Source: Eximiradius proteiniborus (GTDB lineage Bacteria; Bacteroidota; Ignavibacteria; Kapaibacteriales; UBA2268). From it: a stretch of DNA of 34,973 nt. Where the stretch lies: the NCBI GenBank assembly GCA_026415495.1, contig JAOAGZ010000024.1, forward strand, positions 553 through 35,525, written 5' to 3'. The notes under the pieces are model-generated. The model made no database searches. It saw only the letters and a list, made by a program, of their open reading frames with translations, and was not told the origin of the DNA. This document shows positions 4,442 through 31,225 of this stretch, one piece after another (within the stretch, counting starts at the first letter, position 1; each line of letters opens with the position of its first letter). Made by a program: the position numbers and the translations under genes.

Positions 4442-4445
4442 TAAT

Positions 4446-5072
4446 TTAACTCCTTACCTTGGCACTCCATTCTTCCCAACCACCTTCGTATAGAAACACT
4501 CTTTTAAAACCGAATGAAAACATCAATTTTTCAGCCAGATGATGGCTGATATCACAAGAACCACCATCACAATACACAATAATTGTTTTATCTTTAGGAA
4601 GTGATAAAATTTTAGGAATTAGAGTTGATTCTTCCTCATAAGCAAAAATGTTTATTGAATTTGGTATATGAGCTGTTTGATAAGCTTCAGGCTGGCGTGC
4701 ATCAATAATGATAAACTTATCAGATTCTACAATTCTTTTCATCTGCTCAAAAGAGACAATTTTAAAATTCCCTTTGCTCTTTGCAGTGATTTCATCATTA
4801 TCATTCGTGATATTTTTATTATTTTCAGAAAGGCTATCTTTAACAATTGCTTTAACTGTATCTGTTTTTAAAATAGGTTGATTAAAAATTGTATCATTCT
4901 TGGTTTGTTCAATAATACCTGTATCGTTAAACAAAAGAGAATCTGCCACAATTTCACTTTTTTGCCGGAACCAGCCAAGACCATTTGGATTTAAAGCATT
5001 ATAAATGATGGCAATTACAATTGAAAATGAAATAATAATTAATGATTCATAAATGACTTTTTTACTTAACAT
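4446..5072 (-). CDS. membrane-anchored rhodanese-domain protein
   Basis: The 208-residue product has an N-terminal membrane helix (about residues 8-27), a polar linker and a C-terminal rhodanese domain (about 103-206). The domain shows the IIDARQPEAYQTAHIPNSINI entry region and an active-site loop whose nucleophile would be Cys168 in YCDGGSC. A second cysteine in the loop (Cys173) could form a disulfide. Rhodaneses carry persulfide sulfur; the actual substrate is not evident. The ATG overlaps the stop of the J-domain gene by one base (TAATG), a sign of translational coupling. The domain is probably on the outer side of the inner membrane. Confidence 0.88.
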   Translation of the reverse strand: MLSKKVIYESLIIISFSIVIAIIYNALNPNGLGWFRQKSEIVADSLLFNDTGIIEQTKNDTIFNQPILKTDTVKAIVKDSLSENNKNITNDNDEITAKSKGNFKIVSFEQMKRIVESDKFIIIDARQPEAYQTAHIPNSINIFAYEEESTLIPKILSLPKDKTIIVYCDGGSCDISHHLAEKLMFSFGFKRVFLYEGGWEEWSAKVRS

Positions 5073-5440
5073 TAAAAACCTCTTTTCTTCCTCAACAAGT
5101 TATAAGCTTCATTAATTTCCTTAGTCTTTTGTTCTGCCAATAATCGAATTTCTTTTCCTAAATTTTCGACTTTGTCTGGATGATACTCTTTCATTTTAGA
5201 TAAATATGCTCTTTTAATTTCATCGTTCGAAACTTCAGATGAAATTTCTAAAATAGCAAAAGCTTTTTTTTCATCTAAATCAATAGTAAAATTATTTTCC
5301 CAATTATTTTTATTATCAGATAAATTATCGAATTCTTTCTTTAAGTTATCATCGATATCAATATCTAAAAAATCACTGCTATCAGCTGAATTTAATTCTG
5401 CTTTCAAAATATTTTTAATTCTATCAAAAATCTGCTTCAT
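5072..5440 (-). CDS. C-terminal J-domain protein
   Basis: A 122-residue protein with an acidic N-terminal half (many Asp residues at about 20-55) and a J domain at the extreme C-terminus (about 58-122). The diagnostic HPD tripeptide at 87-89 is intact (EYHPDKV), followed by the helix-III pattern EINEAYNLLRK. It lacks the Gly/Phe and zinc-finger regions of DnaJ, so it is a class C co-chaperone expected to stimulate a DnaK partner. It is coupled to the rhodanese gene by a one-base overlap and lies 4 bases after the LOG-family gene. Confidence 0.87.
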   Translation of the reverse strand: MKQIFDRIKNILKAELNSADSSDFLDIDIDDNLKKEFDNLSDNKNNWENNFTIDLDEKKAFAILEISSEVSNDEIKRAYLSKMKEYHPDKVENLGKEIRLLAEQKTKEINEAYNLLRKKRGF

Positions 5441-5444
5441 TTAG

Positions 5445-5975
5445 TTATCCAAAGTATTTGCATACATTATCAATAACATCATCTATTGTTTCGGCATAAT
5501 CAATTAAATAAGAACGTTCAAGAAGAGCTTCCGAATAAAAAGACATAGTCTGAATAACTTCATTCCATTGGTCACCGTAACAAACAATAGGCTTATTTTC
5601 CTTCATTACTCCCTTTTCTTTCAATGCCCATACGGCAGCGAACTCAAGAAGTGTACCTGTTTCCCCCGGCATCACAATATATGCATCACCTATTTCGATT
5701 AATTTATTAAGTCTATCAAAATAATCATTCAATCTTATTTCTTCATTTATGTATTCATTAGGTTGCCTATTTTTAAAAAAGTCAGTTGTAACTCCAATAC
5801 GTCTGATATTATAATCTTTTGCTCCTCGCAGCACAGCTTCCATTATACCTGAATATCCACCAGTAGCGATATGAAAATTCTTTTCTCCGAGTAGTTTACC
5901 TAATTCCATACCACTACAATATTCCGGCATGTTTTCAGTATAAGTACCACCGCCAAAAACAGTAATAATTGGCAT
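5445..5975 (-). CDS. LOG-family (lysine decarboxylase-like Rossmann) protein
   Basis: A 176-residue Rossmann protein related to the LOG/TIGR00725 group, which includes cytokinin-type nucleoside 5'-monophosphate phosphoribohydrolases. Visible hallmarks are the N-terminal FGGGTYTE loop, ATGGYSGIMEAVLRGA near 37-52 and PGETGTLLE at 103-111. The canonical motif is PGGxGTxxE; here the second Gly is Glu, while the catalytic Glu and the GT pair remain. The substrate is therefore uncertain. GAGGTG precedes the ATG at a good distance. It is the first gene of the minus-strand run that reads through to 2038 and is divergent from ribH. Confidence 0.85.
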   Translation of the reverse strand: MPIITVFGGGTYTENMPEYCSGMELGKLLGEKNFHIATGGYSGIMEAVLRGAKDYNIRRIGVTTDFFKNRQPNEYINEEIRLNDYFDRLNKLIEIGDAYIVMPGETGTLLEFAAVWALKEKGVMKENKPIVCYGDQWNEVIQTMSFYSEALLERSYLIDYAETIDDVIDNVCKYFG

Positions 5976-6049
5976 AATAACACCTCAAAAAAAATACAAT
6001 TTATTAGACGTAATTGTATATTCTTTATTAACAAAGATAAATAACATAG

Positions 6050-6081
6050 TTGAAAAATTAGGCTATTTTTTTATATATTTG
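6050..6081 (+). promoter_or_regulatory. possible Bacteroidota-type promoter of ribH
   Basis: TATATTTG (6074-6081) fits the TAnnTTTG -7 box of Bacteroidota sigma-70 promoters. TTGA at 6050-6053, 20 bases upstream, fits the -33 box. It lies 28 bases ahead of the ribH ATG in the divergent 134-base spacer. The match is by eye only. Confidence 0.35.
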
Positions 6082-6109
6082 TAAATATGAATTAAGAGGA
6101 AATATCAAA

Positions 6110-6583
6110 ATGGCTAAAATACTTGAAGGCTTTTTTAGCGCAAAAGGTAAAAAGTTCGCAATTGTTGTTTCTCGCTGGAATCAGTTTATTGTTGCCAAAA
6201 TGCTTGATGGAGCTTTAGATGCTCTTAAAAGAAATGAGGTTAATGAAGAAGATATAACAATTGCATACGTTCCTGGTGCATTCGAAATACCTCTTGCTGT
6301 CAAGAAATTCGCTGCAACAAAAAAGTATGATGCAGTAATTGCAATTGGTGCTGTAATACGTGGTGCCACTCCACATTTTGAATACATAGCTTCGGAGGTT
6401 ACAAAAGGAATTGCTATTAGTTCATTAGAAACAGGTATTCCCTGTATTTACGGGGTATTAACTACAGATTCAATAGAACAGGCAATTGAACGTGCTGGTT
6501 CAAAATCTGGGAATAAAGGCTTCGATGCAGCAATGAGTGCAATCGAAATGGTTTCACTTTTTGATAATCCTGAATTCAAATAA
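6110..6583 (+). CDS. ribH: 6,7-dimethyl-8-ribityllumazine synthase RibH
   Basis: The penultimate enzyme of riboflavin synthesis, joining 5-amino-6-ribitylamino-uracil and 3,4-dihydroxy-2-butanone 4-phosphate. The 157-residue length is usual. Substrate-site motifs are present: SRWNQFI (21-27), [10 protein letters not shown] (54-63), and [15 protein letters not shown] around His89, the conserved general-base histidine. IYGVLTTDS and the C-terminal NKGFDAA helix complete the fold. AGAGGA precedes the ATG. The next gene starts one base after the stop, so the two are probably co-transcribed although functionally unrelated. Confidence 0.97.
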
Positions 6584-6584
6584 A

Positions 6585-8819
6585 ATGTCAAAAAAATATC
6601 TTTTTTTAGTTTTTTTATTATTTTGCAAATCAAGCATATTTTCACAAGATCTTCTTTTGTTTGATTGGCAACTATACACTTCATTTAAAAACATTACTGC
6701 TTCAACAGTTGATGATTCTGGTAATCTATGGTGTGGTACGAATGGTGGAATTTTTGTATATAAGTCGTTAGATAAAAGTTTTAAAACTCTCAATTCGATG
6801 AATGGGATATTGAGTAACAATGTTTCAGCTATTCATTTCGATCCCGTTTCTAAGCTGATTTTTGCTGGTTTTTCCAATGGAATAATTGAAATTTTAACAA
6901 AAGATTTTAAAATTCAGCACATTACTAGTATTTCAACAAGTGACTTTCCTAACTTAAAAATAAACAAGATTATTTCGCATAATGGCTTTTTATACATTGC
7001 AACTGGCTTCGGAATAGCTGTATATGATATTAATAGAGAAATTTTCACTACAAGTGTTGTCAAAATCGCTAATTGGGATAGAACAGAAAATATCAACACT
7101 ATTCACATTGTCAATAATAAAATTTGGGCAGCCTCAAAAAGTGGAATTGCTTCTTGCGACCTTACCAAATTCATTGAAATACCAAACAACTGGGAAATTA
7201 TTGAATTCCCATCAACTAACAAAAATATTGTAGGGATAACATCTTATCATAATCAGCTACTTTTTTGTAATCCACAAGAAGTATTTGCAATTGATAATAA
7301 TTCAATACAAAGTATTGCTCAAGTAAATAGCGAAATACTTGAACTAATTTCGAATGAATATTCCTGTTGGATTATCACACGAAATGGCATTATTGACATA
7401 GATGGCAAATATTTCTACACTAATGAATGCAATGGCGGATTTATCAATAATAGTTTAATGCTTGCTAATACAACCTCTGGTGTAGTAATTATTCAAAATG
7501 GAAATTCAAGTGAGCCAATTTCACCAAATTCACCATCAAATAATACTTTTTCGAGCCTTGCTATTGATGAAAACGGAGTTTTATGGTCTACAAGTGCCCA
7601 CTTGCAAGCACTTTTTTATAAAGGTGGGCTCACCAAATTTGAAAACGGAGTTTGGGAAAACTATTCGTCCAAGGAATTCCCAATTTTTATAACTGATAAT
7701 TTTTATAACGTTGCTATTATCAACGGTATCCTTTATAGTAGCAGTGTCGGTGGAGGTGTTGCTTATTGCAACCCTTACCAAAGACCCTTGCAATTTTCAT
7801 TTCTTTCCGAAAGAAATGAAAAATTTGTCGGAACAAGAACAGAAAGTGACACATTTCTATTTGTTGGAGATTTCAAATCTGACTCTAAAGGAAATGTTTG
7901 GTTCACTAACTGGGGACAGCAAAGTGCTGGACCAATTCTTTTAGCAAGAACGAATGACGGGAAATCTTATCCTTTTTCCAATTGTTATAAATCAGATGAA
8001 CGGCGTATTTTAAAGCTTGAAATTGATAACTTTGGGACAAAGTGGATAGGTTCATATCCGGGAGAAGGTATCGGAATCTTTTACTTTAACGAAAAAAATA
8101 CATTTGAAAATAATTCCGATGATGTTTGCGGAATGATTTCAACTTCAACATTTTCATCGCTGCCTGATAATTCACCTACTGTTATCAAAAAAGACCCAAA
8201 TGGTTGCTTATGGCTGGGATTCAGACAAGGTTTGAGTATTATTTTCAATCCTTCTGCTGTATTATCGAAAAATCAACTAATTATACGACAAATAAATCAT
8301 TTAAACAATCAGTATATTAACGATATATTGATGGACCCAACTGGCAATGCTTGGATTGTAACACAAAACGGAATTTACATAGTTTCGTATAATACTTTTG
8401 AATTAGTTAAAATAATAAACACGAGCAATTCTCCGTTAAAAACAAACAATATTTACTCTATTTGTGGAAATTTTGAAAATGGAACGATTTATTTTGGTTC
8501 TGATAACGGGCTATATTCTGTTAAAACTAATATAATTGAACCAAAAGATAAATACGATATACTATGCTATCCTCAACCATTTAAATTAAATAAAGACGAA
8601 TATTTGTCTATTGACGGGCTTGCGTCTAACACAGAATTAAAAATTATCACCGTTAATGGTGAATTTGTGCGTTCATTGCAAACAACCAGTAGAAAGACTT
8701 ATTGGGATGGAAGGGATGCAAATAATAAAAAAGTATCAAGTGGCGTCTATTTTGTTATTGGTACATCCGAAACAACAAATTCAACAGGTGTTCAGAAAAT
8801 TATTGTAATAAATGAATAA
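6585..8819 (+). CDS. secreted two-component-regulator-propeller-like protein with C-terminal sorting domain
   Basis: A 744-residue exported protein. The start at 6585 gives a clean signal peptide (about residues 1-21, ending near FSQ). Starting at an ATG 48 bases upstream would add a charged extension inside ribH. The body is a series of beta-propeller blades with repeated phrases such as GNLWCGTNGGIF, NKIWAASKSGI, GVLWSTSAH, GNVWFTNWG and GNAWIVTQNGIY, as in the sensor domains of hybrid two-component systems. No membrane helix or kinase follows. It ends with a FlgD-Ig/T9SS type A-like domain (TYWDGRDANNKKVSSGVYF...KIIVINE), so it is predicted to leave by type IX secretion. Its ligand is unknown. 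Confidence 0.85.
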   Translation: MSKKYLFLVFLLFCKSSIFSQDLLLFDWQLYTSFKNITASTVDDSGNLWCGTNGGIFVYKSLDKSFKTLNSMNGILSNNVSAIHFDPVSKLIFAGFSNGIIEILTKDFKIQHITSISTSDFPNLKINKIISHNGFLYIATGFGIAVYDINREIFTTSVVKIANWDRTENINTIHIVNNKIWAASKSGIASCDLTKFIEIPNNWEIIEFPSTNKNIVGITSYHNQLLFCNPQEVFAIDNNSIQSIAQVNSEILELISNEYSCWIITRNGIIDIDGKYFYTNECNGGFINNSLMLANTTSGVVIIQNGNSSEPISPNSPSNNTFSSLAIDENGVLWSTSAHLQALFYKGGLTKFENGVWENYSSKEFPIFITDNFYNVAIINGILYSSSVGGGVAYCNPYQRPLQFSFLSERNEKFVGTRTESDTFLFVGDFKSDSKGNVWFTNWGQQSAGPILLARTNDGKSYPFSNCYKSDERRILKLEIDNFGTKWIGSYPGEGIGIFYFNEKNTFENNSDDVCGMISTSTFSSLPDNSPTVIKKDPNGCLWLGFRQGLSIIFNPSAVLSKNQLIIRQINHLNNQYINDILMDPTGNAWIVTQNGIYIVSYNTFELVKIINTSNSPLKTNNIYSICGNFENGTIYFGSDNGLYSVKTNIIEPKDKYDILCYPQPFKLNKDEYLSIDGLASNTELKIITVNGEFVRSLQTTSRKTYWDGRDANNKKVSSGVYFVIGTSETTNSTGVQKIIVINE

Positions 8820-20446: not shown

Positions 20447-20666
20447 GGTTAATTTTATGTCTCGCATATTTGATGAACTCGTCGAGCTTGCCTGGATGAT
20501 TTTTAAATTCATTATGTGGGTTCTAATTGTTATGTTTGCTATTGGTAGCTTATACTCTCTTATTCGCGATTTTATCAATTCCTTTTGAGTGGCGTTCGGC
20601 AACAGCAGATTTTTGGTTCAATGCAACAAACCATTGAAATTAAAGAATTATTTATTAATTTTGGGG
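20447..20666 (+). repeat. spacer repeat copy A (220 bp)
   Basis: It is homologous to the right half of copies B and C, from GGTTAATTTTATG to TTATTAATTTTGGGG, with scattered mismatches and a single-base indel after the small ORF. It lies directly upstream of R-M module 1. It lacks the left half and the DUF1648 fragment present in B and C. Its left boundary is 10 bases before the ATG of the 43-codon ORF. Confidence 0.85.
20457..20588 (+). CDS. possible 43-residue membrane micropeptide, copy A
   Basis: ATG to TGA gives 43 residues: an acidic amphipathic start (MSRIFDELVELAW), a hydrophobic helix at about 13-36 and a charged tail (SLIRDFINSF). The same ORF is intact with the same length in repeats B and C, while the DNA just after it carries an indel relative to them. 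The ribosome-binding site is poor (GGG 8 bases upstream). Caution: the opposite strand is open here in a Lys/Glu-rich frame, and the antisense of such a frame is automatically hydrophobic, so the coding strand is unsettled. Confidence 0.35.
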   Translation: MSRIFDELVELAWMIFKFIMWVLIVMFAIGSLYSLIRDFINSF

Positions 20667-20802
20667 GAATAATTTTATTTATTTTATTGTAAATATACAA
20701 GCGCTAATAGTAACAAAAAAGGCATCAAACTATAAATAAATGCAATAAAGAAAGTAATATAAAATTAATAATATTTCTGAATAATTACAAAAAGAAACAG
20801 CA

Positions 20803-21987
20803 ATGGAAAAACTCGGAGTACTAGAACTTAATAAGATTCACCAAGGGGACTGCATTGAACTTTTAAAACAAATACCCGACAATTCAATAGACTTAATTTT
20901 TGCAGATCCTCCTTATAACCTTCAATTAAATGGTGAATTATATAGACCAAATCAAACAAAAGTTGAAGCTGTTAATGATGCTTGGGATAAATTTGAGTCA
21001 AATGAAGAATATGATAAATTCACATCATTATGGATGAAAGAGTGTTACAGAATTCTAAAAAATTCAGGTAGTTTTTGGGTTATTGGAACTTATCATAACA
21101 TTTTTAGAGTTGGGACTATATTGCAGAATATTGGTTTTTGGGTGTTAAATGATATTATTTGGATCAAGACAAACCCAATGCCTAACTTTAAAGGAACAAG
21201 ATTTAACAATGCACACGAAACATTGATTTGGGCAACTAAATCAAAATCTTCAAACTATACCTTTCATTATCATTCGATGAAAGTGATGAATGATGATCTA
21301 CAGATGAGAAGTGATTGGTTAATACCCATCTGCCAAGGAGATGAAAGAATAAAAGTAAATGGACAGAAAGCTCATTCAACACAAAAACCTGCGGAATTAC
21401 TTTATAGAATTATCATCTCAACATCCAACCCTGGCGATATTGTTTTAGACCCTTTCTCTGGAAGTGGAACAACTGCTGCTGTTGCAAAAAGGCTTGGTAG
21501 AAAATTTATTGCCTTCGACCGTGAAGAATTTTATGTCAGAATAGCAACAGAACGTGTTGAAAAAATTAAACCTATTGAGAAACCTTTACTTGAGTACAAA
21601 ATTGAAAAAAGAAAACCCAAAGTTCCTTTTGGAAATTTAATTGAAAAAGGTTTTGTAAAAATTGGAGAATTTCTATATTCAAAAGATGGTAAATTCTCTG
21701 CACAAGTTTTAGCAGATGCTTCATTAGAAGGAAATGGTATTGTTGGTTCCATACATAAGGTTTGTGCATCTTTTTTAAAAAAAGAAAACCATAATGGATG
21801 GACTTTTTGGTATGTTAAAAGACAAAATAATCTTGTTAGCATAGATCAACTAAGACATGATTATGAAAAAAAATACTTGAAAAATGAAAATAAATCTGAC
21901 AAATTAGAATTTGAATCAATTAATATTTTTTATGAACCAGAAGAAAGTTTTTTAAATTATGGCGATAATGGAATACAATCTGTTTAA
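20803..21987 (+). CDS. HinfI/CcrM-like N6-adenine DNA methyltransferase (module 1)
   Basis: A 394-residue beta-class methylase. Motif IV DPPYNL (35-40) precedes the AdoMet-binding motif I DPFSGSGTT (216-224). The body shows phrases characteristic of the HinfI/CcrM group (WVIGTYHNIFRVG, NPMPNFKGTRFNNAHETLIWA, NDDLQMRSDWL, HSTQKPAELL). The C-terminal 100 residues (about 275-360) look like the RAMA-type specificity domain of CcrM. The group methylates adenine in GANTC, so that specificity is inferred. It protects host DNA from the nuclease encoded next, whose start lies inside its last 29 bases. Confidence 0.9.
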   Translation: MEKLGVLELNKIHQGDCIELLKQIPDNSIDLIFADPPYNLQLNGELYRPNQTKVEAVNDAWDKFESNEEYDKFTSLWMKECYRILKNSGSFWVIGTYHNIFRVGTILQNIGFWVLNDIIWIKTNPMPNFKGTRFNNAHETLIWATKSKSSNYTFHYHSMKVMNDDLQMRSDWLIPICQGDERIKVNGQKAHSTQKPAELLYRIIISTSNPGDIVLDPFSGSGTTAAVAKRLGRKFIAFDREEFYVRIATERVEKIKPIEKPLLEYKIEKRKPKVPFGNLIEKGFVKIGEFLYSKDGKFSAQVLADASLEGNGIVGSIHKVCASFLKKENHNGWTFWYVKRQNNLVSIDQLRHDYEKKYLKNENKSDKLEFESINIFYEPEESFLNYGDNGIQSV

Positions 21988-22900
21988 ACAGATTTTAAAT
22001 GAAACGATTTTTGAAAAATCAAAAGCAGATTTATTGGAGAAAATTTCAATTTCTCCAAACAGATATGTTGGTTTGTTTAGACCCACCAAACCTAAAGCTA
22101 AAATTCTTCAAAATCTTCTTCAATCCCATGAAATCCGATTTGGAGATGCTTTTGAAATTATTATTGAAGAATATTTAAAAATAATAGAATGCAATATTCT
22201 TCCTAAGCAATTTATTAATAACAACGGCGAAGTATTAAAGATTGACCAGTGTTTTAGAAAAAAAGATAAAGTTTTCTTTATAGAACAAAAGATTAGAGAT
22301 GACCACGACTCTACTAAAAAAAGAGGCCAAATTCAAAATTTTGAAAAAAAGTTAAATGTAATGCTTACTAAATATGAAGAAAATAAATTGGTAGGAGTTT
22401 TTTATTTCATAGACCCTGTATTAGTTAAAAACAAAAACTATTATTCAAAGGAACTTTCTAAAATTACTAATGACTACAATGTGGAAACTCATATATTTTA
22501 TGGCAAAGCCCTCTTTGATTATTTAGGTTATTCAGATATCTGGGATGAAATATTGGAATATTTAGCAACTTGGAAAGAAGAAATTCCTGACTTACCTGAA
22601 ATCAGTTTTGATTTAGATGCTCTTCATACTTTTGAAGAAATAAAAGACTTAAAGCCATTAGTTTTTAGGAAACTTTTAGAAAATGACGAAGTTTATAATG
22701 AAATAGTACTAACACTATTTCCAGAAAAGGAAACATTAAAATTATTACATCAATATTACTCTCAAAAACAAGAAACCATTTACAAAACAATATTAACAAA
22801 ATTAAATGAACGATTAAAATCGAATATTGATGACAATAAAAAATTGCCGGAAACAAACGTTTTGCGTGATGAACATAATAATGCAAACTCCAATAGTTGA
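21959..22900 (+). CDS. type II restriction endonuclease of module 1 (probable GANTC nuclease)
   Basis: A 313-residue protein translated from an ATG inside the methylase gene. A PD-(D/E)xK-like site is visible: Asp96 in LKIDQCF and Glu109-x-Lys111 in FFIEQK, with an upstream acidic helix (FGDAFEIIIEEYL). The function is inferred from this motif and from pairing with a HinfI-like methylase; the sequence itself was not matched to a family with certainty. The last 15 codons (from 22853) are read out of repeat B, so the native C-terminus may have been replaced at the repeat junction. Confidence 0.75.
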   Translation: MAIMEYNLFKQILNETIFEKSKADLLEKISISPNRYVGLFRPTKPKAKILQNLLQSHEIRFGDAFEIIIEEYLKIIECNILPKQFINNNGEVLKIDQCFRKKDKVFFIEQKIRDDHDSTKKRGQIQNFEKKLNVMLTKYEENKLVGVFYFIDPVLVKNKNYYSKELSKITNDYNVETHIFYGKALFDYLGYSDIWDEILEYLATWKEEIPDLPEISFDLDALHTFEEIKDLKPLVFRKLLENDEVYNEIVLTLFPEKETLKLLHQYYSQKQETIYKTILTKLNERLKSNIDDNKKLPETNVLRDEHNNANSNS

Positions 22901-23308
22901 AACAATTGATATATTTGCAACAAATGGCTTTAATTTTCCACACTCCAACAGCACTGTATGATAAAAAATATCCAAAACAAAATATAAAAATTGACTGTGG
23001 AAGTAAAACCAAAAATAACATTACGTCTCACAACAGCCGACAAGATACTTGAAGTTTTTGGTTGGATATTATCTTTAAGGTTAATTTTATGTCTCGCATA
23101 TTTGGTGAACTCGTCGAGCTTGCCTGGATGATTTTTAAATTTATTATGTGGGTTCTAATTGTTATGTTTGTTACTGGTGGCTTATACTCTCTTATTCGCG
23201 ACCTTATCAACTCATTTTGAGTTGCAGTCCGGCAATAGCAGATTTTTGGTTCAATGCAACAAATCATTGAAATTAAAGAATTATTTATTAATTTTGGGGT
23301 GAAAGATT
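22852..23308 (+). repeat. spacer repeat copy B (457 bp)
   Basis: It is collinear with copy C over 457 bases with about 11 substitutions and no indels, counted by eye. It runs from AACAAACGTTTTGCG to GGGGTGAAAGATT. The order inside is a left part of unknown origin (about 145 bp), the first 28 or so codons of a DUF1648 gene starting at a GTG (22997), then the part shared with copy A. The left 49 bases are also the end of the module 1 nuclease gene. It separates modules 1 and 2. Confidence 0.95.
23089..23220 (+). CDS. possible 43-residue membrane micropeptide, copy B
   Basis: The frame is the same as in copy A: 43 residues from MSRIFGELVELAW to LIRDLINSF, with a hydrophobic helix at 13-36. AAGG lies 8 bases before the ATG, the best ribosome-binding site of the three copies. 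Differences from copy C: four codons change the residue (Gly/Asp, Glu/Asp, Leu/Phe among them) and several are silent. The coding strand remains uncertain for the reason given for copy A. Confidence 0.35.
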   Translation: MSRIFGELVELAWMIFKFIMWVLIVMFVTGGLYSLIRDLINSF

Positions 23309-23430
23309 ATGTTATATTACAAGTTGGGTATTATTTTTAACGAATAAACTTTACCAAATGAGTACATAAATAAAATCATCGCCAACCCTTTTAAACAAAA
23401 TTATTTTTATCTTAGAAATTAGTAAATTAA

Positions 23431-25023
23431 ATGGAAATTTCAATTAAAAATATTTCAAAAAACAAGTTTGGTCAATATTTCACGCCAAAAGTAGTAGCTG
23501 AATTTATGGTTAGCTTGGCTACTATTACCACAGATTCAAAAATATTAGAACCAGCTTGTGGTAAAGGTATATTCTTAGAAATTTTACAACAAAAAGGTTA
23601 CAAAAATCTAATTGCTTACGAAATTGACCAAGAATTAGCAAAAAAATTCCCTTTTGTTCGTTACGAAAGTTTTGTTTCTGCAAATATTTCAGAACGATTT
23701 GATCTAGTTATCGGTAATCCACCATATATACGTTGGAAAAATTTGGAAGACGATTTAAAATCAGAACTTTTAATTAATCCACTTTGGAATAAATACTTTA
23801 ATTCGCTATGTGACTACCTATATATTTTTATTCTTAAATCTATTGAACTACTTAACGAGAATGGACAACTGATTTTCATTTGCCCGGAATATTGGATGAA
23901 TACAACTCATTCCATGTCGTTACGAAATTATATGGTTCAAAATGGTTATTTTGAGGAAATTTATCATTTCAATGAAACACCGATTTTTGATAAAGTAACT
24001 GTTTCCATAATAATCTTTAAGTATATAAAAAGTAGGGAAAAAGTTGATAAAATTAAGGTCGCAAAATTTTACGCCAATAAAAAACTAAATTCTGAAATAC
24101 TTCAAAAATTACGGTACCAAATTCCGTTTAATGATACAGAATATTTACAAGTTTCACAATTCAAAGCTAATGAACGTTGGTTATTGCAAAGTGATGAAGT
24201 ACGGGAAAAATTACAAAAATTAGAAATAGCATGCCAAAAACAAAACCCAACTTCCTTGCTCAATTTGTTTGAAGCAAATAAAATAGAATATCATACAATT
24301 GGAGAAATTTGCGACATCGGTAACGGTCTTGTAAGTGGTCTTGACAAAGCATTTCAATTGAACGGTCAACAACTAAACGATGCTGAAAAAATGGCAACTA
24401 TTAATGTAGTAAAAGCAAAAGATTTGAAACCCTATTATGCAAAGCAAATTACAAAATACATTTTTATCAATAAAGATTTAGAAGAAGTCGAGTTCAAAAG
24501 ATTATATCCAAACTTTTATTCTCATTTTCTTAGATACAAAAGCGATTTAGAAAAACGTTATCAATATAATCGAAAAATAAATTATTGGGAATGGGCTTTT
24601 TTACGAAACTTTAACTTATTCAGCAAACCAGAAAAACGTATTTTTGTTCCTTGCAAAGAGCGTATTTCAAACAAAAATTACTTTCGTTTTGCATTAGTTG
24701 ATGATGGAGTTTTTCCTACTCAAGACGTAACTGCTATCTTTAGAAAACCTGATACCAAAGAAAGTATTGAATACATCCTGGCTTATCTTAATCAACCCAT
24801 AGTATTTGATTGGCTTAAATGCAACGGAATTGTAAAAGGAAATATTATTGAGTTTTCTGAAAAGCCTATTGCAAGCATCCCGTTCAGAAAAATAAATTGG
24901 AACAACAAAAGTGAAATTTTACTACACGATTCTATTACCCAATTAACCCAAAAATTCCTAACAAGTAAAAATAAAAAAATGCTTAAAGAAATTAATACAT
25001 TATTTAATCACCTATTGAGATAA
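23431..25023 (+). CDS. HincII-type N6-adenine DNA methyltransferase (module 2)
   Basis: A 530-residue gamma-class methylase. The N-terminal motif X FGQYFTP (13-19) and the AdoMet motif I LEPACGKG (39-46) come first, followed by catalytic motif IV NPPYI (96-100), the TaqI/Eco57I order. The C-terminal half should be the target-recognition domain. It precedes a clear HincII nuclease by 3 bases, so it is taken as the cognate adenine methylase for GTYRAC, inferred from that pairing. The whole module lies between the two 457-bp repeats. Confidence 0.9.
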   Translation: MEISIKNISKNKFGQYFTPKVVAEFMVSLATITTDSKILEPACGKGIFLEILQQKGYKNLIAYEIDQELAKKFPFVRYESFVSANISERFDLVIGNPPYIRWKNLEDDLKSELLINPLWNKYFNSLCDYLYIFILKSIELLNENGQLIFICPEYWMNTTHSMSLRNYMVQNGYFEEIYHFNETPIFDKVTVSIIIFKYIKSREKVDKIKVAKFYANKKLNSEILQKLRYQIPFNDTEYLQVSQFKANERWLLQSDEVREKLQKLEIACQKQNPTSLLNLFEANKIEYHTIGEICDIGNGLVSGLDKAFQLNGQQLNDAEKMATINVVKAKDLKPYYAKQITKYIFINKDLEEVEFKRLYPNFYSHFLRYKSDLEKRYQYNRKINYWEWAFLRNFNLFSKPEKRIFVPCKERISNKNYFRFALVDDGVFPTQDVTAIFRKPDTKESIEYILAYLNQPIVFDWLKCNGIVKGNIIEFSEKPIASIPFRKINWNNKSEILLHDSITQLTQKFLTSKNKKMLKEINTLFNHLLR

Positions 25024-25026
25024 AAA

Positions 25027-25794
25027 ATGTTTGTAGATTATAATAAGTTAGCAAAGAAAATTAAAGGTACTTCCGTCCCCAAGCCACTTTCAGGAACATT
25101 GTCTGGACATGCGGCAGGTGAACCATTTGACAAACACGTTTACAACGAAATCAAAAAGCAATTTCCAAAGAATACTTTTCGCCAATATGAATATTTGAAT
25201 GATTTATTCAGCAAAAACCCGAATGTAATCGGCTTTGAGGCGAGACAAGCATTATTCAATTCTCCTACTGTTATGTTTTTGCTAAGTCGTGGTAAAAATG
25301 CTATGGATAAATGGAGTATTGAAAATCCTTTTGATGAAAAACAAAACGATACTGCAGATATCTTAGTTGTTAAAGATAATTTTTATGAAATTATAGATAT
25401 AAAAACTCGTAATGTTTCCAAATCAGCACAACCACCAAATATTATTTCTGCATTCAAATTAGCTCAAGTTTGTGCAAAAATGTTAGACAATCAAGAATTT
25501 GACAATTTTACCATTAATTATTTTGAAATTGACTGGTTTCTTAATGATGACAAATTAATTTGTCAAGACACCCATTTCGCTTGTTTATTTAAAGCAAATC
25601 CCGAAAACTTATACATTAATTGGGCAGCAGCAATGCAAATTCAGTTTCACGTTAGTGACTTAGACCAATCATTTGACGGATCAATGGAAATTTGGGCGAA
25701 ATCTTATTTGAAGCATTTTGTAACTCAAGCTAAAAAAAGGGCGAACGATATGATTAAAAAGTTTGTGAAGCCATTTGAGAAATATATAAAATAG
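25027..25794 (+). CDS. hincIIR: HincII-type restriction endonuclease
   Basis: A 255-residue type II nuclease that reads as a close relative of Haemophilus HincII (258 residues) along its whole length, for example SGTLSGHAAGEPF, QYEYLNDLF, WSIENPF, INWAAAMQIQFHV and WAKSYLKHFVTQA. The catalytic triad is conserved: Asp111, Asp124 and Lys126 (NDTAD...IIDIKTRN), matching Asp114, Asp127 and Lys129 of HincII with a constant offset of three. It is expected to cut GTY/RAC with blunt ends. The stop lies 10 bases before repeat C. Close identity to an enzyme from a distant phylum suggests horizontal transfer. Confidence 0.96.
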   Translation: MFVDYNKLAKKIKGTSVPKPLSGTLSGHAAGEPFDKHVYNEIKKQFPKNTFRQYEYLNDLFSKNPNVIGFEARQALFNSPTVMFLLSRGKNAMDKWSIENPFDEKQNDTADILVVKDNFYEIIDIKTRNVSKSAQPPNIISAFKLAQVCAKMLDNQEFDNFTINYFEIDWFLNDDKLICQDTHFACLFKANPENLYINWAAAMQIQFHVSDLDQSFDGSMEIWAKSYLKHFVTQAKKRANDMIKKFVKPFEKYIK

Positions 25795-25804
25795 TACGGT
25801 ATAC

Positions 25805-26261
25805 AACAAACGTTTTGCGTGATGAACACAATAATGCATACTCCAATAGTTGAAACAATCGATATATTTGCAACAAATGGCTTTAATTTTCCACACTCCG
25901 ACAGCACTGTATGATAAAAAATATCCAAAACAAAATATAAAAATTGACTGTGGAAGTAAAACCAAAAATAACATTACGTCTCACAACAGCCGACAAGATA
26001 CTTGAAGTTTTTGGTTGGATATTATCTTTATGGTTAATTTTATGTCTCGCATATTTGATGAACTCGTCGATCTTGCCTGGATGATTTTTAAATTTATTAT
26101 GTGGGTTCTAATTGTTATGTTTGTTACTGGTGGCTTATACTCTCTTATTCGCGATTTTATCAATTCTTTTTGAGTTGCAGTCCGGCAATAGCAGATTTTT
26201 GGTTCAATGCAACAAATCATTGAAATTAAAGAATTATTTATTAATTTTGGGGTGAAAGATT
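25805..26261 (+). repeat. spacer repeat copy C (457 bp)
   Basis: It is the direct repeat of copy B, same length and orientation, offset by exactly 2953 bases. It contains the same DUF1648 5' fragment (GTG at 25950), the 43-codon ORF, and an inverted pair GTTGCA (26174-26179) / TGCAAC (26208-26213) downstream of the ORF. It separates modules 2 and 3. A single crossover between B and C would delete the HincII module cleanly. Confidence 0.95.
26042..26173 (+). CDS. possible 43-residue membrane micropeptide, copy C
   Basis: The same 43-residue frame as in A and B, from MSRIFDELVDLAW to LIRDFINSF, is intact from ATG to TGA. No clear ribosome-binding site is present (TATGG upstream). The hydrophobic core MIFKFIMWVLIVMF is identical in all three copies. 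Coding status is unproven. Confidence 0.35.
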   Translation: MSRIFDELVDLAWMIFKFIMWVLIVMFVTGGLYSLIRDFINSF

Positions 26262-26427
26262 GTATGTAACTTTACAACTTATCAGCAACCTAATTTTTGC
26301 GATAAAGTAAGAGCAAAATTGAGCGAAGGGAAATTAAAAAATGCTCACAGATAGAAGTAATTAGTCAAGTGTTTTAACGTCTAAATTTAAATAGAAACTT
26401 CGAAAAAAATTAATGATAAACTAAAGA

Positions 26428-27804
26428 ATGATGTTGACAAAGGAATATATAAAAGAGTTGAAAAGCAAAGGCAATGGTGCTATTGGAAATCTCATTAAAA
26501 GATTTAGTGATAGTAGTTCTTTGATTTTTATTCTTGAAAACTTAGGACAACTCCCTGAAGACTTTGACGGAAGATTTCTTCTCGACTTACTTAGTCATAA
26601 ACACTCTACCGTAAGACTGTGGGCTATTAAATCCATTGGTAAATTAGGGAAAGAAGAATACTTGCCAATTCTTAAACAGATTGCCACTAATGACAGCGAC
26701 ACAAACGTTAGACGTGAAGCCGTTTCATCAATAGGACGAATGAGAACTAAAATGGGACAAAGTATCTTGATAGAAATTCTGCAAGACAATGACCCTAAAA
26801 TTGTATGCCAAGCTATACGAGGACTACTCGTTTTTAAAGGAGAAAGCATAATTGATGACAGCTTAAAACCTTTGGTAAATCACGAAAATGAAATGGTAAG
26901 AACTATTATTTACAAGGAATATTTCGCTGAAAGAATAAATAAAAACAATCAACCACATATCGAGAGCTATGACTATTTGAAAAATGTGGTAGTTAATGCC
27001 GACACCATTGAAACTATGAAATTACTTAAAGACGAGAGTATCCATTTAACATTCACATCCCCGCCATATTATAATGCAAGAGATTATTCAATTTACCCAA
27101 GCTACAAAGCGTATTTAGAATTTCTTGCTAACGTGTTTAGAGAAGTTCACCGTATAACAAAAGAAGGTAGATTTTTAATTGTGAATACTTCACCGATAAT
27201 AATTCCGAGAATTAGTAGAGCACACAGCAGTAAACGCTATCCTATTCCTTTTGATATTCACCCATATTTAATTGAAATGGGGTGGGAATTTATTGACGAT
27301 ATTGTATGGATGAAACCAGAAGCAAGTGTAAAAAATCGCATTGGTGGTTTTCAACAACATAGGAAACCCCTTGCTTACAAACCAAATTCAGTTACAGAGT
27401 ATTTAATGGTGTACAGAAAATCAACAGATAAACTATTAGATTGGAATATCCGCCAATATGATCGGCAAACCGTTCAAGACAGTAAAGTTCCTGAAGGATA
27501 TGAAACTACAAATGTTTGGAAGATAGATCCGTGTTTTGATAAAGTACATTCTGCTGTATTTCCGGTTGAACTGTGTAAACGCGTTATTCAGTATTACTCT
27601 TACAAAGGCGATTTAATTTTTGACCCGTTTGCTGGTAGCGGAACGGTTGGGAAAACTGCAAAAAGCTTAGGTCGTTACTTCTTTCTTACCGAAAAAGATA
27701 AAACTTACTTCGATTATATGAGATCAAAAAAATCGAAGGAGATGTTTGATGCTATTGAAACAAAATTTTTAACTCTTGAAGAATTCAAACAAACTATAAA
27801 ATAA
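26428..27804 (+). CDS. HEAT-repeat/SPPY DNA methyltransferase fusion (module 3)
   Basis: The 458-residue protein has two parts. Residues about 50-165 are HEAT-like helical repeats (DLLSHKHSTVRLWAIKSIGKLG, IATNDSDTNVRREAVSSIGRM, ILQDNDPKIVCQAIRGLL). Residues about 183-430 are a beta-class methylase with motif IV SPPYYNA (211-217) before motif I DPFAGSGTVG (399-408). SPPY is typical of N4-cytosine methylases. The HEAT part may replace or assist a target-recognition domain. It is followed after 2 bases by its probable nuclease. The start lies in an ATGATG; the ribosome-binding site is weak. Confidence 0.88.
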   Translation: MMLTKEYIKELKSKGNGAIGNLIKRFSDSSSLIFILENLGQLPEDFDGRFLLDLLSHKHSTVRLWAIKSIGKLGKEEYLPILKQIATNDSDTNVRREAVSSIGRMRTKMGQSILIEILQDNDPKIVCQAIRGLLVFKGESIIDDSLKPLVNHENEMVRTIIYKEYFAERINKNNQPHIESYDYLKNVVVNADTIETMKLLKDESIHLTFTSPPYYNARDYSIYPSYKAYLEFLANVFREVHRITKEGRFLIVNTSPIIIPRISRAHSSKRYPIPFDIHPYLIEMGWEFIDDIVWMKPEASVKNRIGGFQQHRKPLAYKPNSVTEYLMVYRKSTDKLLDWNIRQYDRQTVQDSKVPEGYETTNVWKIDPCFDKVHSAVFPVELCKRVIQYYSYKGDLIFDPFAGSGTVGKTAKSLGRYFFLTEKDKTYFDYMRSKKSKEMFDAIETKFLTLEEFKQTIK

Positions 27805-27806
27805 TT

Positions 27807-28709
27807 ATGCCATTAAATATAGACGCAAAGAAAAATATCATCAAAAAAGTAATTTCAAATCAAGATTACAGAGATGAAGTTTTAATGATAATTGATGAAA
27901 TTTTTTTAGACTACTGCATTAGTTTCTTAAAGCAAGTCATTTACGCGAAGATAGATACACTAGGTGAAAACTCTGACTGGTATAAAAAAGTATTTCTCAA
28001 TCCTGATTTACCAAAAGAGCAGCTCGCTATCAACTCAGGATTGAATATGAAATCAATAACTAATGCTTTCAATTCTTCGAAAAAAGAAGTAGTTGTTCAA
28101 GCATCATACGACAACTATAGTAGGTTACAAAAAACTATCAATGATTTAGTTTCTAACAGCAATAATTTTGAAATTAAATTATCAATCAAATTCAAAGATG
28201 TTTCAGTGGATTTAACAGTAGCTGAAAGCTTAATTGTAATCAATACCATTGCAGTTAAACGAGCCGAAATACGTGGAGGTATGTGGAGTACGGTAGGTAA
28301 ACAAATTGAAAAGCCTTTAATGACAACACTTTGTATGCTTTTCAATGTTCCATTTGAATATCATACTCAAGTAGATAATCCAGAAAGTTTTAGAGAAGTT
28401 GATTTCTATGTTCTTTCAAAAGATGGTAAAAAACTTAGAACTGAAGTAAAACTTATGGGAAAAGGTAATCCTGAAAGTGCAGATGCAATTTTTGCAAGAG
28501 AGCCAGCAATATTTTTAGCTGATAAACTGTCTGATAAGAACAAACAGCAAGCTGAAATGTTAGGAATTCATTGGATTGAATTACGTGCCCAAAATGGTTA
28601 TAAACGTTTTCAAGAAGTTCTCAATACTCTCGATGTTCCTAACAGTAACTTTAATGGAGATTTAAGCATCCGATTAGATGAAATATTAAAAGAAATATAT
28701 GGCAAATAG
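27807..28709 (+). CDS. probable CfrBI-type restriction endonuclease (module 3)
   Basis: A 300-residue protein with a PD-(D/E)xK nuclease site: Asp199 in REVDFYV and Glu213-x-Lys215 in RTEVKLMGKGNPESAD. An Asn/Lys-rich helical N-terminus precedes it. The stretches INTIAVKRAEIRGGMWSTVG, EKPLMTTLC and VKLMGKGNPESADA recall the CfrBI family, which cuts CCWWGG and pairs with N4-cytosine methylases, in agreement with the SPPY methylase upstream. The family name is from memory of these motifs and less sure than the nuclease call itself. It starts 2 bases after the methylase stop. Confidence 0.72.
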   Translation: MPLNIDAKKNIIKKVISNQDYRDEVLMIIDEIFLDYCISFLKQVIYAKIDTLGENSDWYKKVFLNPDLPKEQLAINSGLNMKSITNAFNSSKKEVVVQASYDNYSRLQKTINDLVSNSNNFEIKLSIKFKDVSVDLTVAESLIVINTIAVKRAEIRGGMWSTVGKQIEKPLMTTLCMLFNVPFEYHTQVDNPESFREVDFYVLSKDGKKLRTEVKLMGKGNPESADAIFAREPAIFLADKLSDKNKQQAEMLGIHWIELRAQNGYKRFQEVLNTLDVPNSNFNGDLSIRLDEILKEIYGK

Positions 28710-28735
28710 GAAAATAAAAGACAGAAAGATAGCCG

Positions 28736-28759
28736 AATCACAGAATCACAGAATCTCAG
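28736..28759 (+). repeat. 8-bp tandem repeat (3 copies) at the edge of repeat D
   Basis: AATCACAG, AATCACAG and AATCTCAG are three adjacent octamers, the third with one change, ending exactly where homology to repeats B and C begins. They replace the start of the DUF1648 gene. They could be slipped-strand scars at a recombination junction. Confidence 0.75.
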
Positions 28760-28810
28760 AACATTACCTCTCACAACAGCCGACAAGATACTTGAAATTA
28801 TTGGTTGGAT
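28760..28810 (+). repeat. spacer repeat copy D (51 bp)
   Basis: From AACATTAC to TTGGTTGGAT it matches 23017-23067 in copy B and 25970-26020 in copy C with a few mismatches, and then diverges. The shared part encodes the DUF1648 segment LTTADKILE. It separates modules 3 and 4. Confidence 0.8.
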
Positions 28811-29270
28811 TTCATTATTGGCGATCTGGGCTTTGATCTTTGCAAACTATCGAAATTTACCAGAAATTATTCCGACACACTTCAACGGTGTTTGAATTGC
28901 AGATGGTTTTGGGGATAAATGGATGATTTTTTCTTTACCTATAATAGCTACAATTCTTGTTGTTGGGCTGACAATTTTAAATAAGTTTATTATTCGCACA
29001 ATTTTGAATAAGTTCATTGACTATAACAATAACTCAAACAAAATAATTCAGGAACACTCAATAAAGCAATACAATCATGTAACAAGATTAATCAGATATT
29101 TAAAGTTAATTATCGTTGTTTTATTTGGAGTAATTGTATCCCAAACGATTAGATATATCAATGGGCAAACAGACGGACTTGGAGTTTGGTTTTTACCGTT
29201 TGCACTCGGAATTATTTTTCTCCCACTAATATACTTTGTAGCGAAATCAATTAAAGCAACTAAACAGTGA
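28760..29270 (+). pseudogene. broken DUF1648-family membrane protein gene
   Basis: One frame runs from 28761 to the stop at 29270 and encodes a DUF1648 protein: LTTADKILEIIGWISLLAIW, NLPEIIPTHFN, ADGFGDKW, then membrane helices with LRYLK-like motifs (HVTRLIRYLKLIIVV) and GLGVWFLPFALGII. Two defects are visible. There is no start codon, because the 5' end is replaced by the octamer repeat. A TGA at 28893-28895 interrupts the conserved FNxxGxADG region where a Gly codon (GGA) is expected. An ATG at 28923 opens the remaining 115 codons but would lack the family's N-terminal half, so the locus is best called a pseudogene. Function in other bacteria is poorly defined. Confidence 0.8.
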
Positions 29271-29445
29271 TGATCGTAAAATAAGATGCAATTAATTGAT
29301 TTAACATCAAGTAGGTTTTCTTGAAAATTTGTTTTTTCTCAAAAATCTCTCAACTCACAAAGCATGAAAATATCCGCTGTTAAGGCACAAAAAAACTGAT
29401 ATAAAAATCTAAGAAAATAATTATTTTTGGAATGAGGAAAATACT

Positions 29446-30306
29446 ATGACACTCTGGAATAATGATATTGAAATTCTTTTCTTTCAAGAAGCACTAAAAA
29501 ATTTTGCTTCACCAGAACAATTGTTTTATAAGCTTAAGAATGAATATTTTGCTTATATTCCAAAGGGTTTTGATGCAGAAGGAAAAACTTTGCAAAGTAG
29601 AAACGCACTTATCGGACAATTTACTGAAAAATGGTGTAAAACACTTTTTGAACCAATAGCAAAAAAATTGGGTCTTTATGCAGTAAACAGCGTTGTATGT
29701 GATGAAATAGGGCTTTCAAGACAATCGAATGCCGATCTTGCCTTTTGCACAACAAATAATATAATTCAAAAACCTGAAAATATCAAACTGCTGTTTGAAA
29801 TTAAAATGAGTATAGTTTCAAATTACAAATACATTCCTCCTGATAAACTTGAATTTATTGGTGATTACAAACAGCATAAAGGCAACCCTGCATTGCTTCG
29901 TTCTGATTCAATGCTTAAAGCTATTGGGAAATCGATAAATATTCGTGTTTCAGGCATTAATTCAACAAAAATACCCATAGTTGTTTTAGGTAATAGCCCT
30001 ATTACCGACAGCTATGTCAATAAGGTTGATTTTCTTAAAACCTCAGGAGTAATACAAGGATTCTGGTCATTAAATCCTCAGCCTACAAACTCGGAGTATA
30101 TAAAAACAACACCCAATTTAGGTTTTCAAACTATTTTAAACTTGGAACAACTTTATAATAAATGCAAAGAACTAGTAGAAAATGAAATGAATTATTTTTC
30201 TTCAATGATTTCAAAAAAGAAACTGGGAAAAATTATTAGAATTGCAAGTAGAGAGAACTCTGATAATGCAAAGGCAGAAAAATTTCTTACACTAATCCGG
30301 AGCTAA
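29446..30306 (+). CDS. probable restriction endonuclease of module 4, family not recognised
   Basis: A 286-residue protein with a PD-(D/E)xK-like site: Asp97 in SNADLAF and Glu118-x-Lys120 in LLFEIKMS, with an earlier Glu61 in the helix GQFTEKWC. It contains no other recognised domain. A GAGGA ribosome-binding site precedes the ATG. The methylase gene starts one base after its stop, so a restriction role is inferred from motif and pairing. The gene order, nuclease before methylase, is the reverse of modules 1-3. The recognition sequence cannot be read from the protein. Confidence 0.72.
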   Translation: MTLWNNDIEILFFQEALKNFASPEQLFYKLKNEYFAYIPKGFDAEGKTLQSRNALIGQFTEKWCKTLFEPIAKKLGLYAVNSVVCDEIGLSRQSNADLAFCTTNNIIQKPENIKLLFEIKMSIVSNYKYIPPDKLEFIGDYKQHKGNPALLRSDSMLKAIGKSINIRVSGINSTKIPIVVLGNSPITDSYVNKVDFLKTSGVIQGFWSLNPQPTNSEYIKTTPNLGFQTILNLEQLYNKCKELVENEMNYFSSMISKKKLGKIIRIASRENSDNAKAEKFLTLIRS

Positions 30307-30307
30307 A

Positions 30308-31225
30308 ATGAAAAGGTCTAAAGGAACAGAAACAAGTGCTTTCGGAACAAATGGAAGAATTAACCACGATAGTTCAAAGTTTTACAATTCAAAACTCTAC
30401 AAAGAACTTGAAGTAAGTAAAGTAATTGATAAAAGTGAAAATGATTTCCCAGTTGAACTTGAGAACCAAATTATTCAAGGCTCAGCCGAAAATATGAATG
30501 AGATACCCAACAATTCGGTTCATTTAATGATCACATCACCGCCTTACAATGTTTCAAAAGAATATGATGAAGATTTATCACTTAATGAATATCTACAACT
30601 ATTAGAAAATTCATTTAGAGAAACATATAGAGTTCTTGTAAACGGAGGTCGTGCTTGTATAAATGTAGCTAATCTGGGAAGAAAGCCTTATATCCCTCTA
30701 TCAGATTATATTTCAAAAATGATGATAGATATAGGTTTTAATATGCGAGGCGAAATCATCTGGAACAAAGCAGCAAGTGCAAGCCCATCGACTGCTTGGG
30801 GTAGTTGGCAAAGTGCAGCAAACCCTATTCTTAGAGATGTTCACGAATATATATTAGTTTTTTCAAAAGGAGAGTATAAAAGAGAAAAGAGGCAAAAGGA
30901 AGATACAATTACCAAAGAACAATTTATGGAATGGACAAAGTCAATCTGGACATTCAATGCTGAAAGCGCTAAAAAAATTGGGCATCCAGCTCCATTTCCT
31001 GAAGAACTCCCATATAGACTAATTCAACTTTATTCTTTTAAGAACGACATTATTCTTGACCCTTTTATAGGTAGTGGAACAACCGCCGTTGCTGCTTTAA
31101 AAGCAGACAGAAAATTTATTGGTTATGATATTAACAAAGAATATATAGAATTAGCAAGAAAAAGGATTGAACCTTTTTTAAAACAAACTAAATTAATGTT
31201 TGACGCAACAAAGTCGTTAGAATAG
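30308..31225 (+). CDS. SPPY-type DNA methyltransferase of module 4 (probable N4-cytosine)
   Basis: A 305-residue beta-class methylase with motif IV SPPYNVSKEYD (77-87) before motif I DPFIGSGTT (251-259). Long conserved phrases such as GGRACINVANLGRKPYIPL, MRGEIIWNKAASASPSTAWGSW and RDVHEYILVFSKG belong to a widespread N4-cytosine/N6-adenine group; the SPPY signature favours cytosine N4. The first 50 residues are polar and variable. It is coupled to the nuclease gene by a one-base gap. No controller protein gene is present in any of the four modules. Confidence 0.9.
   Translation: MKRSKGTETSAFGTNGRINHDSSKFYNSKLYKELEVSKVIDKSENDFPVELENQIIQGSAENMNEIPNNSVHLMITSPPYNVSKEYDEDLSLNEYLQLLENSFRETYRVLVNGGRACINVANLGRKPYIPLSDYISKMMIDIGFNMRGEIIWNKAASASPSTAWGSWQSAANPILRDVHEYILVFSKGEYKREKRQKEDTITKEQFMEWTKSIWTFNAESAKKIGHPAPFPEELPYRLIQLYSFKNDIILDPFIGSGTTAVAALKADRKFIGYDINKEYIELARKRIEPFLKQTKLMFDATKSLE

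Follow-up and report, generated by a model that had tools for sequence, protein, structure and literature searches.

What does an array of HEAT repeats do at the front of a DNA methyltransferase? The question is raised by a gene at 26428..27804 (forward strand) in the 34,973-nucleotide stretch of Eximiradius proteiniborus DNA that we analyzed, which as a whole is called the window here. A preliminary description had suggested that the repeats might act as a target reader, as a dock for the neighboring nuclease, or as a clamp on duplex DNA.

Architecture of the methylase

The open reading frame encodes a protein of 458 residues in which Pfam and AlphaFold2 identified HEAT repeats followed by a beta-class SPPY methylase. 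Its start may be the second ATG (26431), since in most relatives the alignment begins at residue 2. The N-terminal part matched the Pfam profiles HEAT_2 (3.1e-15, 56.7 bits, cut-off 27.7), HEAT (2.7e-10, 39.9 bits, cut-off 23.5) and HEAT_PBS (7.6e-7, 29.5 bits, cut-off 20.9). Residues 205-430 matched N6_N4_Mtase (PF01555; 1.9e-39, 136.4 bits) over profile positions 1-218 of 221.

An AlphaFold2 model built from 69 rows had a mean pLDDT of 88.9 and a pTM of 0.76. Together with the Pfam matches and conservation, its helices delimit a solenoid of 11 helices at residues 5-165 (26440..26922, forward strand), with the blocks at 51-160 reaching pLDDT 89-98. It is followed by a linker, residues 166-183 (26923..26976, forward strand), which is poorly conserved in the alignment and includes the least confident part of the model; pLDDT fell below 50 only at 169-172, before the full methylase core. 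An earlier model from 54 close rows (mean pLDDT 71.4) was poor in the core and good in the HEAT part, where the repeat helices were identical; its linker was below 50 at 169-178.

The methylase core spans residues 184-435 (26977..27732, forward strand), as defined by Pfam and by structural matches to TTHA0409 and CcrM. It follows the beta-class motif order, with SPPY first and FxGxG last. The catalytic SPPY motif (residues 211-214; 27058..27069, forward strand) was invariant in the 69 rows, and FDPFAGSG, the AdoMet-binding motif I, was recognized from sequence and alignment at residues 398-405 (27619..27642, forward strand). The presumed target-recognition region (residues 297-375; 27316..27552, forward strand) was placed by the beta-class layout and by alignment with HEAT-less relatives. 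SPPY is typical of N4-cytosine methylases, and going by this motif the product is probably one of them.

Using the earlier, weaker model, VIA-align matched the core to TTHA0409 (2zig/2zie; Z 21.1, 4.1 Å over 227 residues) and to CcrM (6pbd; Z 20.0), and the HEAT arm to designed alphaRep HEAT proteins (Z 17.2, 2.3 Å over 151 residues). Foldseek with the 69-row model agreed with these matches. TTHA0409 and CcrM thus resemble the window methylase in the fold of their core, but the aligned structures lack a HEAT arm.

The product is therefore a real HEAT solenoid joined by a linker to a complete beta-class SPPY methylase, as the preliminary description had proposed. In the model of the methylase, the helical region came out as HEAT repeats and not as a linker. 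The array itself stands, although it measures about 160 residues (helices 5-165) and not the 115 or so first estimated. The target-recognition region had been thought short; it is in fact 79 residues long, and HEAT-less relatives have one of the same length save for a small insertion (two or a few residues).

A CfrBI-like system and its relatives

The next gene, in tandem and 2 nt downstream, encodes a CfrBI-family restriction endonuclease of 300 residues (27807..28709, forward strand; PF09516, E 2.6e-24; PADLOC REase_II PDLC03496, 4.8e-89). In a 34-row alignment E213 and K215 were invariant and D199 was present in at least 90% of the rows; on this conservation D199 and E213-x-K215 (28401..28451, forward strand) likely form a PD-(D/E)XK site. 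Since its neighbor is a PF09516 endonuclease, the methylase belongs to a CfrBI-like type II restriction-modification (R-M) system that carries a HEAT module.

The CfrBI-type genes of pO26_3-like enterobacterial plasmids offer the closest comparison among characterized systems. Their methylase core is 51.6% identical to that of the window over residues 184-431, the CfrBI endonuclease belongs to PF09516 too, and the plasmid neighbor gene is annotated as a CfrBI family endonuclease. On the other hand, the plasmid methylase has 376 residues and an N-terminal region with neither a Pfam match nor HEAT repeats, its genes are divergent whereas those of the window are in tandem, and its recognition region is of another type (a 23-residue stretch as against EASVKNRIGGFQQHRKPLAYK). 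According to PMC12707154, the divergent CfrBI genes have overlapping, methylation-controlled promoters. Inspection by eye of 25750-26480, upstream of the window methylase, revealed no CCWWGG.

The PADLOC profile PDLC03276 (404 positions) matched residues 66-430 of the window methylase at 251 bits and also matched the divergent relatives L100 and L102. It has a shorter N-terminal part, apparently extends over some of the HEAT repeats, and is described as nothing beyond a Type II methyltransferase. This kind of protein thus seems to be covered already in a defense database. In the literature searched, which lacked most subscription papers, we found no description of HEAT-fused type II methylases. 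Plasmid records contained no match to the endonuclease, plasmid and phage records none covering 80% of the methylase, and a nucleotide search of phages gave no match.

HEAT-bearing methylases are widespread. A protein scan of genome contigs left 80 of 101 relatives, at 59-90% identity, which by record title come from Bacteroidota, Ignavibacteriota, Elusimicrobiota, Spirochaetota, Planctomycetota, Pseudomonadota and others; many are metagenome-assembled genomes, so that some of the labels are perhaps binning errors, and isolates (Hydrotalea, Raineya, Vaginella) are included, among them Hydrotalea sandarakina DSM 23241 (L071) and Vaginella massiliensis (L027). Of the 80 loci, 78 covered 100 or more of the 130 residues at 36-165, a count biased toward HEAT because half of the six peptide patterns used fall within that part; at the remaining two (L075, L081) the matches begin at a contig end. 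Two other scans did not favor HEAT. Searching the phylum for the endonuclease family gave eight hits in 395 genomes, and all seven methylase partners that could be read, that of the own genome included, had HEAT repeats (in a shorter form in G270); around the eighth hit, G341, the sequence covered was just 2 kb, ending with the contig. Patterns confined to the core found 20 loci on viral contigs, three of them (L206, L207, L208) with HEAT; L206 and L088 are one contig. As to the alignments, A1 comprised 53 of the 80 loci plus the window (27 were omitted as cut, frame-shifted, redundant or for size), A2 comprised 33 loci plus the window, and A3 omitted the viral loci L206, L213, L220, L222, L224 and L225.

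The system lies in an island of four R-M-like pairs (20803-31225): a CcrM-like methylase with an HpyAIV-family endonuclease, a HincII pair, the HEAT pair, and 29446-30306 with 30308-31225. A single repeat is present in four full or partial copies, 82-100% alike per family, at 20447-20686, 22852-23319, 25805-26272 and 28760-28815, that is before, between and after three of the units (HpyAIV-type GANTC, HincII and HEAT), and a 303-base piece of the repeat was found in these four places only within the genome sample searched. It looks as if the units were inserted with long target duplications or exchanged as cassettes through the repeat. The 286-residue protein of 29446-30306, directly before an SPPY methylase, had no Pfam match above the cut-off and, with the limits applied, matched nothing in NCBIfam or PADLOC; it is possibly an endonuclease of an unlisted family. 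The same pair is found, 81-86% identical, on the 137 kb viral contig L088. There, at 3665-8098, a HEAT methylase, preceded in frame by an XRE-like HTH, is followed by the start of a CfrBI-type endonuclease, which loses likeness after about 30 codons, and then by the 29446/30308-type pair.

Other loci vary around the methylase as well. An XRE-like HTH lies about 40 nt before it at L011, L015, L016, L058 and L068, and a weaker one lies farther away at L066; the window and its closest relatives gave no match, and this is likely a controller gene that comes and goes. At L052 (2990-3961), L058 (6119-7192) and L068 (6228-7193) an extra ORF of about 320 residues stands between methylase and endonuclease, and the methylase stops short at residue 372-407. 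At L062 (4824-8200) the place of the endonuclease is taken by a 353-residue protein that matched no Pfam profile, an AAA ATPase that narrowly passes the cut-off for BrxC/BrxD, and an ORF of 342 codons; here the HEAT methylase has perhaps been reused in another defense system.

We looked for the target by site avoidance, as observed over expected counts in a 391 kb sample of the own genome. The method flagged known systems there: HincII GTYRAC (21/142, O/E 0.15), GANTC (492/960, O/E 0.51) and AccI GTMKAC (39/119, O/E 0.33), an AccI-type endonuclease gene (PF09545, 724 bits) being present in the genome. CCWWGG, the CfrBI site, was not depleted in that sample (69/72), nor was CCAAGG (31 observed, 33.4 expected). 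Summed over five carriers (G000, G294, G369, G019, G031), CCWWGG stood at 286/329, with 41/40.8 in the same-genus control G287. We found no motif strongly low in all five carriers yet normal in G287; the lowest in all five (CTAG, GGCC, GTATAC, CATATG, GTMKAC) were low in the control too. As the recognition region differs from the CfrBI type, CCWWGG is a doubtful target for the window system. In the same 391 kb the genome also very strongly avoids CATG (84/751), CTAG (45/476), GGCC (34/415) and GATC (284/1003), as does the same-genus control.

Conserved inner face of the HEAT arm

HEAT arrays as a rule have their inner face lined by the second helices of the repeats, and it is by this general layout, not by reading the model, that we assigned the inner face of the window protein. 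Polar positions on the inner helices were almost invariant, with a mean entropy of 0.63 bits compared to 2.47 on the outer or first helices (54 rows), a contrast matched in none of 20000 permutations. Their mean charge was +0.32, compared to -0.03 outside (54 rows). The control was one unrelated HEAT protein of the same genome with 29 relatives, treated by the same kind of register rule; it gave 1.39 versus 2.82 bits and an inner charge of -0.02, compared to +0.31 for the methylase in this comparison. Because the inner/outer entropy ratio is 0.49 in this control family, compared to 0.29 in the methylase, some of the conservation bias is generic to HEAT repeats; the basic charge is not.

The conserved inner-face residues include K68, K72, R96, E97, S100, R104, K124, Q128, R131, K163 and E164. 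K68, R131 and K163 occupy one register in repeats two, four and five, with S100 in that place in repeat three, and K72 and R104 occupy the next, so that a basic strip runs along the array. Acidic residues are found on the same face: E97 and E155 are invariant, and E164 is almost invariant. Taken as a whole, moreover, the domain carries just a small positive net charge (mean +2.9, s.d. 2.9). For both reasons a protein or intramolecular partner for this face is possible. Among the most divergent members, as judged by eye, L100 lacks R131 and K163 and L102 lacks the first repeats.

AlkC and AlkD are helical-repeat solenoids too, but they are glycosylases, whereas the HEAT array of the window is fused to a methylase. 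PMC4433238 describes AlkD-type proteins as holding the DNA backbone with a positively charged concave HEAT-like surface; the same is only proposed here for the methylase. That paper also states that DNA affinity is absent from HEAT-repeat proteins with a similar architecture. VIA-align and Foldseek returned other HEAT structures, and neither AlkD nor AlkC was among the best 50 matches listed in either.

Possible roles of the arm

The suggestion that the arm reads the target, made in the preliminary description, draws on the fact that AlkD-type HEAT-like solenoids do bind DNA; the contact in AlkD, according to PMC4433238, is mainly through the backbone. The reading fared poorly against the viral methylase L209, which is 70% identical to the window core from residue 174 onward and whose start codon comes after an overlapping upstream frame. 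We searched the L209 locus for HEAT repeats and found none. On a 72-row core tree (HEAT branch support 93/95, several deep branches long) it takes two changes to explain the distribution of the 58 HEAT rows, and L209 is nested among them, below a starred branch with 98/98 support. On this tree, then, the arm was gained a single time and L209 has lost it. The recognition region of L209 nevertheless shows no less conservation than the remaining core, with 61 of 79 residues identical to the window in the former and 124 of 173 in the latter. Since a HEAT-less enzyme keeps this region, base reading most likely sits in the methylase core and not in the HEAT part, and a target-reading arm appears very improbable.

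Binding of the cognate endonuclease, which the arm would tune or carry, has more in its favor. CfrBI-family endonuclease similarity of at least 750 nt was found in the same locus at 64 of the 80 loci, every readable partner in the phylum scan had the arm, and the stretch around the HEAT-less viral locus L209 contained no endonuclease that we could find. Against it stands the exchange of the endonuclease in the window's own clade. The endonucleases of the window, L006, L007 and L010 are 87-94% alike. Between this clade and L011-L020 they are 48-52% identical, with cores at 86-94% and HEAT parts at 61-81%; for L011, L014 and L016 the values are 49-52% for the endonuclease, 72-81% for HEAT and 88-94% for the core. 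At the stop codon of the methylase, DNA identity between the window and L011 drops to 57%, having been about 80% before it; the endonuclease was therefore exchanged at the gene boundary, the HEAT part not following. Given the core, HEAT and endonuclease identities correlated at only 0.15 (31 rows). Endonuclease fragments were found at 4 of the 80 loci and the stretch was too short at 8; at another four (L029, L033, L062, L074) 3.6-5 kb of downstream DNA contained no endonuclease, and their methylases keep all 13 conserved HEAT face residues, as does that of the viral locus L208, in whose stretch we found no endonuclease either. Enterobacterial CfrBI relatives, conversely, combine a CfrBI endonuclease with a non-HEAT methylase. 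Retention of the HEAT arm is thus independent of the endonuclease, and a dock for the neighboring nuclease is disfavored; we consider this role unlikely.

The main rival to a DNA-holding arm is an arm with a stabilizing or regulatory role, either folded back on the core of the methylase or forming a dimer. The mixture of invariant basic and acidic residues on the inner face, the shortness of the linker (18 residues) and the parallel divergence of HEAT and core (r 0.87) would fit such a role. However, HEAT-less cores that stand alone (250-283 residues, 59-71% identical) do occur, so the core can do without the arm, and the linker contains the least confident and least conserved part of the protein; we regard this explanation as rather unlikely, if less so than endonuclease binding. 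It could also be speculated that the arm regulates transcription of the R-M system, as an N-terminal region does in some methylases (M.SsoII; PMC3978073). This has little to recommend it here: the arm occurs with or without an upstream XRE-like sequence (found just before the methylase at five bacterial loci and on one viral contig), and in a comparison with five close relatives the 400 nt preceding the window methylase matched none of their upstream stretches. To our knowledge, moreover, HEAT is not an operator-binding fold. A part in transcription control seems remote.

Among the three earlier readings, then, a clamp on duplex DNA is the one we favor. It is compatible with the conserved basic inner face, which we infer to touch DNA, raising affinity or processivity. 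The N-terminal solenoid would be an accessory module tethered by a short linker; with its basic inner face it would hold the DNA backbone without reading sequence and keep the methylase on the duplex near its site, with base recognition and catalysis left to the C-terminal core. We give such a sequence-blind, DNA-holding arm about an even chance of being correct. A broader proposal is more tentative and in our view somewhat short of probable: that the widespread methylase family carries a detachable HEAT clamp, kept by bacteria with or without the endonuclease and strippable by viruses, as a module for processivity or chromosome coverage that is separable from target choice.

The window thus carries a CfrBI-like R-M system with a HEAT arm. 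In this system each of the three components, methylase, endonuclease and controller gene, can be exchanged or lost without the others, and the HEAT-bearing enzymes and HEAT-less L209, with almost the same recognition region, form a natural matched pair. If the clamp is real, it would explain how a small methylase can mark a whole chromosome fast enough to keep it safe from its own nuclease.
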